64,000 nucleotides of DNA from NCBI GenBank assembly GCA_015075745.1, contig JABTTW010000001.1, forward strand, positions 2,294,001-2,358,000, in the 5' to 3' direction. The stretch comes from Planctomycetia bacterium. GTDB taxonomy: Bacteria > Planctomycetota > Phycisphaerae > UBA1845 > UTPLA1. The position numbers and the translations under genes are program-made. The notes under the pieces were generated by a model that worked only from the letters and a program-made list of their open reading frames with translations, did not search any database and was not told the DNA's origin. Shown one piece after another: positions 28,294 through 61,906 of this stretch. Each line of letters begins with the position of its first letter. Position 1 is the first letter of the stretch.

Positions 28294-29867
28294 TGATCTT
28301 CGAATGGTGATGGACGGAGTTTTTCGGCTTTGTGCGTGAGCGGAGGGATGAAGGTGGAGGTTGGGGCGCGCAGAGCCCCCTTACCCCCAAGCGGTGATCA
28401 GGTTGTTTTTCGGGTCATGATGGGGCGGGCGGGATCAGGCGGAGTCGTGGAACCAGGGATCGCCACAGGTCCTGCAGGGGGCAGCTGCTCGACAGTCGCA
28501 GTACGACGCGGCGCACGGAGACGACCACCCGCGCGGCGACCTTGAAGAGTTTCAGGCGAATGGTGTTCACCTGGGCCTCGGCCAGTTCGGTGCCGGCCAG
28601 GGCCGTGCGGCGCAGCGTTTCCACCAGGACGTAGGCCGCCGAGGACAACAGCAGCCGGAACTGATTGGCCAGGAAGGCGTGGCAACTGGTGCGATCGGCG
28701 AAGAGCCCGAGCTGCTGCTCCTTGATGCGGTTCTCCATGTCGCCGCGGGCCGTGTACAGACCGTCGTAGATATCGTTCGGCGTGCGGTCGGTCAGGTTGG
28801 TCACCACGAATCGAACGTTGGGCCCCTGAACCAGCCGCTCGGCCTTGACGATCACGCGGCGCGGGCGATCCCAGGTCTGCGCCGCGTACTCGATCTCGTG
28901 GAAGTTCCGCACCTTCTGCTGCGTGGTGGCGAACTGGGCCTCGGCCGCCTGCATGAAGGACTCGGCCGCTTTCTCCAGGACGGTGTTGCGGGCCAGGCCC
29001 AGCACGTACTTGACGCCGTGCCGGTCGCACCATTTCATCATTCGCCGGCGGCAGAAGCCGGAATCCCCGCGGACGATGATCCGCACCCCGGGCCACGCCT
29101 GTCGCAAGCGCTGCACCAGCAGCTTCAGGATGGGCCAGGCGTGATGGGCCCCGTCGATGTTGCTGGGCCGCAGGTAGGAGACCAGCAGCCGCGAGCCGCA
29201 GAACACATACAGCGGTAGGAAGCAGTGGTGGTCGTAATAGCCGTGGAAGAAGCGGCCTTCCTGGTTGCCGTGGATCGGATCGTCGGTCGCGTCGAAGTCG
29301 AGGATCAATTCCTCCGGCGGCGATTCATAGGACGCGATGAACTGCTCCACCAGCACACGCGACATTCGTGCCAGGTCGCCGCGCGTGACGCGGTTCTCCA
29401 GCCGGCACAAGGTCGGACTGCTGGCCAGCGGCTCATCCGCGCTCGGCGGCCGCCCGGTCAGGACCGCCAGCACGGGATCGCTCCGCAGGGCTTGATGGTC
29501 GTTGAGATCTTCGTAGCCCATCGCAATGGCAAAGATGCGCTGGGCCAGCATGACCCGCTGGTCATGTTGAATTCGGGCCGGATCACGCGGGTCGTTGATG
29601 ACCCCGGCCAGTTGATCGACCAGGCCCAGACGCCGCTCGACCTCCCGAAGCAGCAGACCCCCGGCGTCTGAGGTGAGCGTTCCGCCTGTGAAATCGGCCA
29701 CGATTTTCTTGCGGCCGAGACTGGAAAAGAACATCGGTTTGCTGTTACAGTCTGTCACGAAAAAGCCTCCCTGCCTATGGACCGGAATGTTCTTACGAAA
29801 CCCCAGTCTACAAGGCTTCGAGGCTTTTTCTATTCCTATTCAACGCCGACCTGATGAAATATTCGGG
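28277..29867 (-). mobile_element. Complete IS1380-family insertion sequence (1,591 bp)
   Basis: The element contains one transposase gene on the minus strand and is bounded by 17-base inverted repeats with one mismatch. Both sides are flanked by CTAG (28273-28276 and 29868-29871), consistent with the 4-5 bp duplications known for IS1380. Gene and ends are intact, so it may be active or only recently inserted. Inside, 28294-28414 and 29759-29850 are noncoding flanks of the transposase. Confidence 0.9.
28415..29758 (-). CDS. IS1380-family transposase (DDE)
   Basis: This 447-residue transposase catalyses cut-and-paste movement of the element. The N-terminal 'VADFTGGTLTSDAGGLLLRE' motif is typical of IS1380. 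The DDE triad is visible: Asp in 'LILDFDATDDPIHG', Asp in 'IIVRGDSGFCRR' and Glu at about residue 342 in 'RGDMENRIKEQQLG', the last in the YREK-like context of IS4-related transposases. It starts with GTG after a GGGAGG sequence. There is no frameshift or stop, so it should be functional. Confidence 0.93.
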   Translation of the reverse strand: MTDCNSKPMFFSSLGRKKIVADFTGGTLTSDAGGLLLREVERRLGLVDQLAGVINDPRDPARIQHDQRVMLAQRIFAIAMGYEDLNDHQALRSDPVLAVLTGRPPSADEPLASSPTLCRLENRVTRGDLARMSRVLVEQFIASYESPPEELILDFDATDDPIHGNQEGRFFHGYYDHHCFLPLYVFCGSRLLVSYLRPSNIDGAHHAWPILKLLVQRLRQAWPGVRIIVRGDSGFCRRRMMKWCDRHGVKYVLGLARNTVLEKAAESFMQAAEAQFATTQQKVRNFHEIEYAAQTWDRPRRVIVKAERLVQGPNVRFVVTNLTDRTPNDIYDGLYTARGDMENRIKEQQLGLFADRTSCHAFLANQFRLLLSSAAYVLVETLRRTALAGTELAEAQVNTIRLKLFKVAARVVVSVRRVVLRLSSSCPLQDLWRSLVPRLRLIPPAPS

Positions 29868-56287: not shown

Positions 56288-56503
56288 TTCGGGGCACGCC
56301 GCGGCGCGCCGTCGATGGAAGCGAAAATCGCCACAAGCGGGGCGGCAGTCCGCCTTCATGCCCGTCCCACGATTCTTGCAAACGCACAATCCCCGTGCCT
56401 GCGGGCACAAAAACGGCGGTGGGGCGTGTTTCCACCTCTGTTTTGGTTGTTTAGTGTCCGTGCCGGGGATACGATAAGTATCTTTGGATTCGGAGGTTGG
56501 AAA

Positions 56504-58525
56504 GTGTTTGATCGACTGCCCACGCGCATTGGGGTCGGGGCGTTTGTGCTCCTGAACTTCTGTCAGATTGCGGCTGCCGCGGGCCCGGACGTCATCGTCG
56601 GCGAACTCCAAGTGATCATGCGCTGGGGACGTGTCGGGGGCATCACCGGCTACTCTTTCGGCACGGTCTCGTGCAACATTGGCGACACCCCCCTCCTCTG
56701 GATCGCGGAGACAAATCAGCACCCGGTCATCGCCCAGAACATGTATCGATTGAAGGGCGGCCAATTCGAGCAGATCGGCATGGCATGGCTCAAGCACGCC
56801 TTCGCCTCCACGAATGAATCCGGCGTTTGCGCTACCTGCCAGGATCCCGGCACGAGTGATCTTTTGGGCGTAGGATGTAATGATCCCTACGGGGCCGGGC
56901 TCAACGGAAACCAGATCATCCTCGGGCCCCGTTCGGAGGTGAACGCGGCAACCGGGGCATTTCCATATCCCTTCACGAATTACCCACACACTTTGATCAT
57001 CGATAAGCGCCTTCAGGTGCGCGACGAAGACATCAATCCGGCACTCAACGCTGGCGCCCTTTATTTCGTCGAGGGGCACTACGTCACGCCCGACGACGCC
57101 GCCGCCGCGGGCAACGACAATAACAACGCGTCGTATCGCCGGTTTACCGTCAACGAAAACTCGACCAACGTCTTTGCCTGCACGATGACGGACACGACCG
57201 AGCGAGAGAAGTTCGGCATCCAGGCGTGGCAGGACTTCGATCCGACGGTCACGCTTGTCAACATCGACATTCCCGGCGACGGACGGCTGATACTTGGGGC
57301 GAAGGTCACCGACCTGGGCACTGGCTTCTGGAACTACGAATACGCGCTCTTCAACGCCAACTCCGATCGCAGCGTCGGCTCGTTTTCGATTCCGCTCGAT
57401 CCCGGCGCGGCGGTTCCATCGTCGGCCTTTCACGATGTCAGTTACCACAGCGGCGAGACCTATGACCCGACCGATTGGCCGGCCGGTATTGCGGGCGGCG
57501 CGATCACCTGGCAGACGACCGCGCATGGCGTGAATGCGAACGCAAACGCGCTGCGATGGTCCACCCTCTACAACTTCCGCCTCGTCACCAATGCCCCGCC
57601 GATACCAAACAGCCAGATCACCCTCGGCCTGTTTAAGCCCGGCGCACCGGCGTCGGTCGTCGTCATTGCGCCCGGCCCCGTGGATGCCCCGGTCGATTGC
57701 AACATGAACGCCATCCCCGACGCGGTCGAGATTCAGATGAATCCGGCGCTGGACTGCGACTCCAACGGAAATCTCGACGAATGCGATCCCGATTGCGACA
57801 ACAACGGCACGGCCGACGCCTGCGAGATCATTCTGAATCCGCTCTTGGACTGCAATGTCGATGGGATTCTTGACGTGTGCGAGATTCCCGTCGGCAGCCC
57901 GGCGCCGGGCGGACCTTTCTTCTGCGTCTCCGACTGCGACCCGGATTGCAACGTCAACGGCACTCCGGACAGTTGCGACATTGCCGAGATGACCAGTGCC
58001 GATTGCAACGCCAACGGCGTGCCCGACGAATGCGACATCGCCGCGATGACCAGCAACGATTGCAACGCCAACGGCGTGCCCGACGAATGCGAGATCGCCG
58101 TCGGCAGCCCCGCGCCCGGCGGGCCGTTCTTCTGCACGAGCGGCTGCGACCCGGATTGCAACGGCAACGGCGTGCCGGATGAATGCGATATCTCCAGTGG
58201 CTTCGACGGCGACTGCGACACAAACATGATCCCCGATAGCTGCGACATCGCCGGCAATCCCGGCATCGACTGCAACGCCAATGGCGTGATCGATGCATGC
58301 GGCGAAACGGATTGCAACGGCAACTCCATCCCGGACGACTGCGAGCATCCGGCCTGCCCCGGCATTCTCGTCGGCGACATGGATTGCAGCGGCGTCGTGG
58401 ACCCCGGCGACATTCCCGCCTTTGTTCAGCAGGTGCTGTCCGGCTGGCTCTCCTGTCAGGCCGATATGAACGCCGATGGGAACGTGGACGGCCTCGACGT
58501 GCAGGATTTCGTTTCCGCGATGTGA
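56504..58525 (+). CDS. Secreted DCNxNGxPD repeat protein with dockerin-like C-terminus
   Basis: This 673-residue exported protein has a GTG start at 56504 with GGAGG 7 bases before it; the signal peptide 'IGVGAFVLLNFCQIAAAAG' is cleaved near residue 30. Residues ~30-400 form a beta-rich N-terminal part with Cys residues ('VCATCQDPGTSDLLGVGCND'). Residues ~400-620 carry about ten repeats of the type 'DCNANGVPDECDIAAMTS', with Asp/Asn arranged like EF-hand or thrombospondin type-3 calcium loops and two Cys per unit. The last 50 residues contain two Asp-rich calcium loops ('GDMDCSGVVDPGDI', 'ADMNADGNVDGLDVQDFV') as in the GC-type dockerin-like anchors of planctomycetes. Probably a surface or matrix protein; the target of the dockerin-like part is unknown. 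Confidence 0.85.
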   Translation: MFDRLPTRIGVGAFVLLNFCQIAAAAGPDVIVGELQVIMRWGRVGGITGYSFGTVSCNIGDTPLLWIAETNQHPVIAQNMYRLKGGQFEQIGMAWLKHAFASTNESGVCATCQDPGTSDLLGVGCNDPYGAGLNGNQIILGPRSEVNAATGAFPYPFTNYPHTLIIDKRLQVRDEDINPALNAGALYFVEGHYVTPDDAAAAGNDNNNASYRRFTVNENSTNVFACTMTDTTEREKFGIQAWQDFDPTVTLVNIDIPGDGRLILGAKVTDLGTGFWNYEYALFNANSDRSVGSFSIPLDPGAAVPSSAFHDVSYHSGETYDPTDWPAGIAGGAITWQTTAHGVNANANALRWSTLYNFRLVTNAPPIPNSQITLGLFKPGAPASVVVIAPGPVDAPVDCNMNAIPDAVEIQMNPALDCDSNGNLDECDPDCDNNGTADACEIILNPLLDCNVDGILDVCEIPVGSPAPGGPFFCVSDCDPDCNVNGTPDSCDIAEMTSADCNANGVPDECDIAAMTSNDCNANGVPDECEIAVGSPAPGGPFFCTSGCDPDCNGNGVPDECDISSGFDGDCDTNMIPDSCDIAGNPGIDCNANGVIDACGETDCNGNSIPDDCEHPACPGILVGDMDCSGVVDPGDIPAFVQQVLSGWLSCQADMNADGNVDGLDVQDFVSAM

Positions 58526-59678: not shown

Positions 59679-59812
59679 GGCCGGAAGCGTTTTTTTCAAT
59701 GGAAAATGCCGTTTTTCGCGATTCGCGGCAGAAACTGTGTCGGCTTGTGTACCTCCTGTGTCTCCGGCATGTGCCGGTTAACCAAGTGCTCAATAACACG
59801 GGAGATCGAACG

Positions 59813-61906
59813 ATGAACATGCGAAGTGAAAACAGAAACGGGAAGCGACTCAAGTCGGGGTTCACGACGGCTCTTGCGGCCCTCGTTGTTCAAGTGGCCC
59901 TCGCTCGAACGGAAGCGGTCGCCGCCGACAGCGCAAACGGCCCGACGATGGAGGCCAGGATTGTCGAAGCTCAGGCGATTACCGAGCAGTTCGACGCCGG
60001 ATCGGAGACGGTTGAAGTGCTGGTCAACCTGAGGTTGCCGGCGACGAATCGAAGCAATGCCGTACTGGGCGCGGCCGGCGATTTCGCGGCGCAGCGCACG
60101 ACGGTCGCGGCCGCTCAGACGACGCTGATGACGAGAATGGCGCCCGGCGAATTCATGCTGCATCACAATATGGAGAACCAGGCGACGATGTGGGTCTCCG
60201 TCACGCGTGCGGGCTTGGAATCGCTGCGGAACGATCCGAGCGTTGAGTCGGTTGAGCCGGTTCGCATTCTCGAAGCGCACGACGTACAGGGACTTGCCCT
60301 GATGAATGCCGCGGCTACACGCGCCACTCACGGTGGGGCGGGCGTGGCCATCGCCGTCTGCGATACGGGCATCGACTACACGCACCCGCAACTTGGTAAC
60401 GGCGGCTTTCCGAATGCCAAGGTGCTCGGCGGTTTCGATTTTGGCGATAACGATGCCGACCCCCGGCCCAATGGTGAGAGCCACGGCACGGCGTGCGCGG
60501 GCATCGCGGCCGGTGACGTCGCCAACATCGGCGACTACAACGGCGGCGTCGCGCCGCAGGCCAAGCTCTATGCCTTGAAGATATCCACGGGCAACACGGG
60601 CAGCGCCACGGATGCCGCGATGATCGCCGCCTGGGACTGGTGCGTGACGCATCGCAACGACAATCCAAACTTCCCGATCAAGGTGATCAGCACCAGCTTC
60701 GGCGGCGGCCGGGCCCTTGGAAATTGCGATGCGGACGTCCCGGCGATGGCCACCGCGGCGCAGAACGCGATGGCGGCGGGCATCACGCTGCTGGTTTCTT
60801 CGGGCAATGAGGGTTACTGCGACGCGATGGGCTGGCCGGCCTGCATCAGCGGAGTTTTGTCGGTGGGCGCGGTGTATGACGCGAACGTCGGCGACGGGAT
60901 GGCCTTTGTCGTGGCACCGGAGTCCTGCACGCCTGACAAGCGGAGTGACGCCAACAGCCCGACGGGCTACATCGGCGTTGACATGACGACGGCGGCCGAC
61001 CAGGTGACGTGCTACTCGAACACGTCGAGCGGCCTGACGCTGTTTGCCCCCTCGCACATGGCGTTCACGACTTCGATCCGCGGCACGGGTAATGACGCCA
61101 CGCGAAACTTCGAGACTGATTTCGGCGGAACGTCCGCAGCCTGCCCTTACGCAGCCGGCGCGGTGGCGGCGCTGCAGTCCGCGGCGAAGGCGACGACGGG
61201 ACAGTTCCTTACGCCGGCGCAGGTGAAGCAGATGCTCACCTCGACGGGCGACAACGTCACCGACCACAAGGCCAACATCACGAAGCCGCGGGTCAACCTC
61301 GGAAACGCCATCGCCGGATTGTCGGGCGGCACGCCGAATCCGAACCCGAATCCGACGCCTGAGCCGGCGCCGAACCCCGTCGACGACGCGTACGAGCCGA
61401 ACAACACCGTTGAGCAGGCGGCACAGATTCAGGCCGGGACGTTTGATCTGAAGTGCCTCGATAGTGACATCTTCAAGCTGCGAACGAGCACGGGACGGTT
61501 GACGGTCTCGATCCAGGGCTCGACGGGCGACCTCGATCTCTACGTCGTCCTGACCAAGAATGGCCAGACAGTGGTTGCCAAGTCCGAGACGGAATCGTCG
61601 AACGAGTTCGTGGAGGTGCAGGTCACCGACGGCGACCAGTTCATCGAGGTTGTTCCCTACCAGGGGCAGACCAGCGACTACCGCATGACCGTGAGCTTTG
61701 TCCCCGAGAATGCCCGCGTGGTCCCTGAGCCGCCGTCTTCGGAGATTCCATGCAGCTCGGGCATGTGCGGCGTCGGATGCCAAGCCAGTCTCATGGCACT
61801 GGCGGTCGGCTTCATGGGTCAGCGGCGAATGCGGGTTCGCCGCAAGGGCCTGCGAACCTGGTCCCCCCGGTCGGCGGCAGTTGATTCCGCAGGCGGGCAG
61901 AATTAG
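59813..61906 (+). CDS. Secreted subtilisin-like serine protease (S8) with PPC domain and C-terminal sorting-type segment
   Basis: This protein has about 697 residues. The ATG at 59813 follows a GGGAGA; a signal peptide ('FTTALAALVVQVALARTEAV') and a propeptide-like region (to ~165) lead into the S8 catalytic domain. The triad is Asp184 in 'AVCDTGIDYTHPQL', His224 in 'SHGTACAGIAAG' and Ser441 in 'GGTSAACPYAAG'. A Pro/Asn linker ('NPNPNPTPEPAPNPVDD') leads to a prepeptidase C-terminal domain (~525-640) that starts 'DAYEPNNTVEQAAQI'. The end has 'CSSGMCGVGCQASLMALAVG' followed by 'RRMRVRRK', reminiscent of MYXO-CTERM-type sorting signals, then an extra tail. Confidence 0.9.
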   Translation: MNMRSENRNGKRLKSGFTTALAALVVQVALARTEAVAADSANGPTMEARIVEAQAITEQFDAGSETVEVLVNLRLPATNRSNAVLGAAGDFAAQRTTVAAAQTTLMTRMAPGEFMLHHNMENQATMWVSVTRAGLESLRNDPSVESVEPVRILEAHDVQGLALMNAAATRATHGGAGVAIAVCDTGIDYTHPQLGNGGFPNAKVLGGFDFGDNDADPRPNGESHGTACAGIAAGDVANIGDYNGGVAPQAKLYALKISTGNTGSATDAAMIAAWDWCVTHRNDNPNFPIKVISTSFGGGRALGNCDADVPAMATAAQNAMAAGITLLVSSGNEGYCDAMGWPACISGVLSVGAVYDANVGDGMAFVVAPESCTPDKRSDANSPTGYIGVDMTTAADQVTCYSNTSSGLTLFAPSHMAFTTSIRGTGNDATRNFETDFGGTSAACPYAAGAVAALQSAAKATTGQFLTPAQVKQMLTSTGDNVTDHKANITKPRVNLGNAIAGLSGGTPNPNPNPTPEPAPNPVDDAYEPNNTVEQAAQIQAGTFDLKCLDSDIFKLRTSTGRLTVSIQGSTGDLDLYVVLTKNGQTVVAKSETESSNEFVEVQVTDGDQFIEVVPYQGQTSDYRMTVSFVPENARVVPEPPSSEIPCSSGMCGVGCQASLMALAVGFMGQRRMRVRRKGLRTWSPRSAAVDSAGGQN

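Follow-up and report, generated by a model that had tools for sequence, protein, structure and literature searches.

Lysyl oxidase cross-links collagen in animals. In human LOX, residues K320 and Y355 form LTQ (PMC4448552). A hypothetical cohesin/dockerin surface complex of planctomycetes, the 'planctosome', was put forward from sequence evidence only by Andrei et al. (2019; PMC6461901). Our literature searches returned no paper on lysyl oxidase in planctomycetes, none treating dockerin and PEP-CTERM together and none on a 'GC-type dockerin'. The gene considered here lies in a 64,000-nucleotide stretch of a planctomycete genome (the window). Our best explanation of its product as a whole, which we rate as evenly poised between right and wrong, is a Sec-exported modular surface protein that would be docked by a dockerin and carry a lysyl-oxidase-like (LOX-like) domain in its N-terminal part (the N-domain). 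Its docking end, a variant of known dockerins, falls within an already hypothesised system; what is new is the unannotated, widely distributed LOX-like N-domain, together with evidence of dockerin/PEP-CTERM interchange.

The gene occupies positions 56504–58525 of the window on the + strand, on which all its features below are given, and encodes a protein of 673 amino acids (P0001) from a GTG start, with a ribosome-binding-like GGAGG (56492–56496) 7 nt upstream. Its sequence reads, in order, as a signal-peptide-like start (aa 1–25, 56504–56578, with a cut inferred near the junction of AAAA and GPD), an N-domain of about 370 residues, 11 cysteine-rich Ca-loop-like units and a two-loop dockerin end. 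The first-pass annotation had taken the protein to be secreted, in agreement with this N-terminus, and had passed over the N-domain, which is its most novel part. The closest homologue among the matches listed, from the uncultured planctomycete PLA6 (L114), is 69% identical and has the same architecture, repeats and dockerin included. A search of homologue flanks for neighbours of the gene in the window, as conserved operon partners, found none. Elsewhere in the window there is a transposase-like ORF (28415–29758, − strand) that resembles the IS1380 family.

About ten DCNxNGxPDxCD repeats, likened to calcium-binding loops with regular cysteines, had been noted in the middle of the protein, and this description holds. 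There are 11 EF-loop-like units of the form DC[ND]x[ND]xxxDx[CV][DEG] (57695–58345); matches to DCxxNxxxDxC start at aa 398, 417, 430, 449, 481, 500, 519, 551, 570, 589 and 603, mostly spaced 19 residues apart, and the region (aa 398–614) contains 26 cysteines. When either the whole protein or just the repeat region was shuffled 20,000 times, no shuffle gave more than one unit, and Tandem Repeats Finder reported periods of 57 bp and 27 bp. The structure model of this region is of low confidence. The units resemble thrombospondin type-3 repeats (PF02412) in the Ca-loop pattern DxDxDGxxDxC(D), with a cysteine at position 11, but differ from them by an extra cysteine at position 2, and the 673-aa protein gave no match to PF02412 at E ≤ 1. 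Units of the DCN type also occur in a 2604-aa protein of this genome (L099:736-8547), which has about 27 of them along with FG-GAP repeats, a C-type lectin domain and a dockerin end, and in one family (L080, L026, L008) that combines an internal dockerin with DCN repeats and a conserved C-terminal EEAAWEAFYDWAIxQCWG domain.

The C-terminal module (aa 624–673, 58373–58522) reaches the last residue and contains two Ca-type loops, D-x-[ND]-x-[DS]-G-x-V-D-x-x-D, at aa 625 and 654; helices after the loops are predicted, with low confidence, at model positions 611–620 and 638–647. The earlier description of this end as dockerin-like stands. In isolation the end falls just short of the cut-off of Dockerin_1 (PF00404), with 22.5 against 22.9 bits (15.9 bits on the whole protein). 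The same cut-off is passed at more than 30 other sites of the genome, and at E ≤ 1 the model finds 94 sites, many of them weak. The more specific assignment, to the GC-type dockerin anchors, did not survive. Like the proteins described by the GC-dockerin model NF041540, this one carries a C-terminal dockerin-like anchor in a planctomycete; unlike them, its isolated end scores 17.8 bits against a curated cut-off of 29, and no ORF of the genome reaches that value, the best standing at 22.6 bits. By this cut-off, GC-type membership is ruled out for the window copy and for the genome as a whole. A profile built from 66 such C-terminal ends of the same genome, 23 of which NF041540 matches weakly, had no PDB matches besides dockerins and a few further Ca-binding proteins, the best being cellulosomal (CelL-type, 6kg9, E 2e-10). 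Because NF041540 stays below its cut-off and the PDB dockerins are the best matches of the profile, the end is, judged by its sequence, to be classed as a divergent type-I-like dockerin rather than as a GC-type one.

The first-pass annotation was to fall if the C-terminal motif recurred in no other protein of the genome, but at least 74 ORFs have it, counted over the genome stretches that were fetched rather than over a full gene call. In these the dockerin lies a median of 2 and at most 12 residues from the stop; a further four strong copies are internal or penultimate. Two dockerin-tailed proteins of the genome are S8 peptidases. The genome also encodes about 50 PEP-CTERM proteins and two exosortases, one of which (G000:C1:2366874-2367653) is found some 14 kb downstream of the gene studied here. 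By PEP motif, transmembrane helix and basic end, the window protein itself does not class as PEP-CTERM; its tail is the dockerin. In three adjacent tandem paralogue pairs (L049; L067 at C2:509.4/510.5 kb; L094 at C2:895.9/898.7 kb), bodies that are 47–55% identical are followed by a dockerin in one copy and by PEP-CTERM in its neighbour, and none of the genome ORFs examined carries both tails. As far as these sequences go, the two ends are interchangeable. Since related bodies carry either tail, and since tails vary among planctomycetes, we infer that the dockerin end serves as an alternative localisation or attachment end, a role that its presence as a terminal module across the genome would also suggest. 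A subtilase in the window (59810–61906, + strand) has a PPC-like domain and a Cys-rich, hydrophobic, basic tail (CSSGMCGVGC...RRMRVRRKG) that is no recognised sorting signal; as a second genome-wide sorting signal this tail was rejected, its matches being at chance level.

What the dockerin would bind is partly answered by the genome. Cohesin partners had been called unknown; in fact the genome encodes one cohesin that passes the Pfam cut-off, and four candidates of lower score lie at C2:491–500 kb and C1:1106 kb. They reside in dockerin-bearing LTD/CotH-type proteins and in small cohesin–dockerin proteins, and their modules include those of L067 (C2:498.0 kb and C2:500.0 kb), L066 (C2:491.0 kb) and L068 (C1:1106.4 kb). 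A complex of this kind was proposed in 2019, so that the claim is only partly right. One protein combining LTD, CotH, cohesin and dockerin (C2:493.7–499.2 kb) fits the LTD anchor with cohesin of the planctosome, and a small cohesin–dockerin protein, its cohesin weak, adjoins an HYR-domain protein encoded by a separate ORF. Because the cohesins in LTD/CotH proteins and the adaptors resemble the planctosome, the suggested surface attachment system may still be one but is not wholly undescribed. Five consecutive genes (L066/L067, C2:481.6–500.6 kb) with LTD, CotH, PKD, cohesin and dockerin modules make up a planctosome-like locus, and three of the five share an odd C-terminus, DxNGDGxxDAxDIRxFxRxxG.... 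Cohesin sites never coincide with PEP-CTERM ORFs, and a PEP-CTERM protein bearing a cohesin as membrane scaffold was therefore discarded as a candidate. A search for co-occurring receptor genes had been advised; among 294 planctomycete genomes, cohesin is present in 20 of the 30 with at least five dockerin matches, as against 22 of the 264 others, dockerin counts being capped at 22 scored candidates per genome. By family, which controls partly for kinship, the figures are 9/12 for dockerin-rich families and 18/78 for the others (p 7e-4); both tallies were compiled manually from the rows listed, the count of the other families being approximate.

Dockerin–cohesin pairing in this genome is accordingly plausible on sequence grounds. 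In that case Ca2+ would fold the dockerin, which would then bind cohesins of large LTD/CotH/HYR surface proteins in a planctosome-like manner, at the end of a repeat array that might act as a Ca2+-stiffened, disulfide-pinned stalk. Alternatively, the dockerin could be a sorting or retention tag for a non-cohesin receptor or an export machine, with the few cohesins being incidental extracellular domains. We consider this possible, if on the doubtful side: it would account for the excess of at least 74 tails over one clear cohesin, for the 10 of the 30 dockerin-rich genomes in which the search detected no cohesin (e.g. G057, G114 and G235) and for the swap with a tail that is linked to exosortase, but it sits poorly with the coincidence of dockerin-rich and cohesin-bearing genomes above expectation, by family as well, and with the planctosome-like make-up of the proteins in which the cohesins of this genome reside. 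A further explanation would assign attachment, or calcium storage, to the repeat array itself, the dockerin then being an extra, partnerless pair of Ca-binding loops. That the dockerin profile picks up the DCN units as well shows the two to be similar loop types, and the repeats recur in several dockerin-tailed proteins of the genome; most of the 74, however, lack DCN repeats, and the dockerin stands at the extreme C-terminus, which leaves this explanation quite improbable.

The N-domain, for which searches of Pfam, NCBIfam and PDB sequences gave no match, is by no means rare. It was found in 62 of 294 planctomycete genomes and at no fewer than 566 loci in the GTDB collection. The present genome has five paralogues, all with dockerin-type ends, one of them about 1.4 kb before the window; in other planctomycetes the domain is followed by dockerin, IPTL-CTERM-like or other Cys-Pro ends. 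AlphaFold modelled it with high confidence (pLDDT 94.5, pTM 0.93) as two subdomains. Two models had human LOXL2 as their best-aligned PDB chain (5ze3; Z 10.0, 165 residues aligned, rmsd 3.9–4.0 Å, 12–13% identity), and LOXL2 was the only top row to cover domain residues 1–221, that is, subdomain 1 (aa 26–246, 56579–57241). The other top rows cover subdomain 2 (aa 250–391, 57251–57676), a predicted beta-sandwich resembling chitin-binding/CBM-like, adhesin and mu-adaptin domains. In a Foldseek search with the model, LOXL2 was not among the first 50 rows. The match to the LOXL2 catalytic domain at Z 10 is thus suggestive of a LOX-like fold in the model, not decisive.

Further likeness to lysyl oxidase is found in the order and spacing of conserved residues. 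True lysyl oxidases (PF01186) occur in 12 of the 294 planctomycete genomes; their profile, which aligns with LOXL2 at E 5e-35, shows GHKASFC...GITMGCWDMY, and the N-domain motifs T..CN.G, H, YRL, K..F, LGVGC.D.Y...L...Q, YFVE and NN follow the same order. By motif, Lys97 (domain position 72; 56792–56794) and Tyr129 (domain position 104; 56888–56890) correspond to the quinone-cofactor residues of LOX, K653 and Y689 in LOXL2, and by spacing His73 (56720–56722), kept in 132 of 133 homologues, corresponds to the middle copper-ligand histidine of LOXL2; the His–Lys–Tyr intervals are 24 and 32 residues in the N-domain and 25 and 36 in LOXL2, and both have GCxDxY (GCWDMY in LOXL2). The lysine and tyrosine are both kept in 125 of the 133 homologues and both lost in the other 8, one never being lost alone, and the Asp of GCxDxY follows the pair. 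On a tree built without the two columns these losses amount to 5 changes each; only four independent pairs are well supported, all of them in agreement, which is why a sign test is not significant (p 0.125). Among the 2211 pairs of 67 conserved columns, perfect covariation was confined to this pair (8/8) and to Cys87–Cys100 of the domain (4/4). The latter, Cys112 (56837–56839) and Cys125 of the GCxDxY motif (56876–56878) in the window protein, looks from its covariation like a disulfide, and LOXL2 has a disulfide, C663–C685, at the corresponding place. The window protein retains all five residues.

The copper site, by contrast with that of lysyl oxidase, is altered, the triad HxHxH being replaced by NxHPV with the middle histidine alone kept; His290 of the domain, tried as a metal ligand, is a weakened candidate, being kept in 110 of the 133 homologues only. 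Direct sequence homology between the N-domain and LOX was likewise set aside: 59 N-domain members gave no match to PF01186 at E ≤ 10, an initial hhalign comparison was not clearly above the best of 30 shuffles, and against planctomycete LOX the score was 24 (P ~0.01) where the best of 100 column shuffles gave 23.5, a nominal support. Because the hhalign signal is weak and the triad reads NxHPV, our claim is kept to a LOX-like fold with a coupled Lys–Tyr pair and does not extend to calling the domain a lysyl oxidase. Two planctomycete proteins that do match PF01186 (L277 and L279) have damaged copper motifs (HxNxV and HxHxA); their Lys and their Tyr are both intact, and the Lys is followed by a new His (KTSH). 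Two of the dockerin-tailed proteins of the present genome are of the MauG type, with di-haem; MauG makes another protein-derived quinone, so it may be worth testing for a connection with the LOX-like domain.

Fold and covariation taken together suggest that the N-domain may be a remote lysyl-oxidase-like domain in which Lys97 and Tyr129 are probably covalently joined, as in lysine tyrosylquinone, beside a changed metal site; if active, it might oxidise amines, for example in cross-linking extracellular polymers. The N-domain could also be a pair of adhesin-like beta-sandwiches whose LOX likeness is a common arrangement and whose Lys–Tyr pair is a structural contact. Middling Z values are indeed common for models that have no clear Foldseek match, the second subdomain resembles adhesins and CBM-like folds, and the sequence family match and the metal motif are both missing. 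Against this stand LOXL2 as sole top row over residues 1–221, the Lys and Tyr at positions predicted by the LOX motif, the GCxDxY signature and a covariation like that of the Cys–Cys pair, and we regard the adhesin-like reading as rather unlikely.

If the LOX-like reading is true, bacteria hold an abundant, unannotated branch of the LOX fold where, even with the copper motif gone, strict selection acts jointly on the lysine and tyrosine of the cofactor, and the minimal requirements for LTQ formation become testable. The tail-swap pairs would provide a natural experiment on what dockerins do outside cellulosomes, be it sorting, docking or both, and the few LTD/CotH/HYR cohesins of the genome may be taken as concrete candidate receptors for the proposed planctosome. 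That all this describes one large, unnamed planctomycete family of surface-docked LOX-like proteins, with a Lys–Tyr cofactor of LTQ type, a metal site without HxHxH and a dockerin end interchangeable with PEP-CTERM, is a tentative proposal, more apt to fail in some part than to hold throughout.

Set beside the systems already described, the protein is a mosaic of likenesses and departures. With lysyl oxidase (PF01186; LOXL2 5ze3; PMC4448552) it would share the predicted fold of residues 1–221 and, judged by motif and spacing, equivalents of the LTQ lysine and tyrosine, the GCxDxY motif, the Cys pair and the middle His, but it has an extra beta-sandwich subdomain and an insertion of about 40 residues after the Tyr, and it matches neither PF01186 nor HxHxH. 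Its end resembles the cellulosomal type-I dockerins (PF00404; 6kg9, 1ohz) in its pair of C-terminal 12-residue Ca loops, with a helix after each, while lying narrowly under the Pfam cut-off. A classical cellulosome was rejected as an explanation, no multi-cohesin scaffoldin having been seen; unlike in cellulosomes, glycoside hydrolases are a minority among the dockerin-tailed bodies here, which include propellers, Ig, S8 peptidase, P-domain and MauG. In serving, as it seems, a C-terminal sorting role across tens of secreted proteins, and in swapping between tandem paralogues, the dockerin end recalls PEP-CTERM/exosortase (PMC1569441), from which it differs in lacking a PEP motif, a transmembrane segment and an Arg cluster. 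A further parallel is the planctosome (PMC6461901), with its LTD proteins bearing cohesin, cohesin–dockerin adaptors, HYR domains and dockerin-tailed peptidases; the present genome departs from it in its CotH modules, its far larger number of dockerin-tailed proteins, its PEP-CTERM swaps and its LOX-like client.
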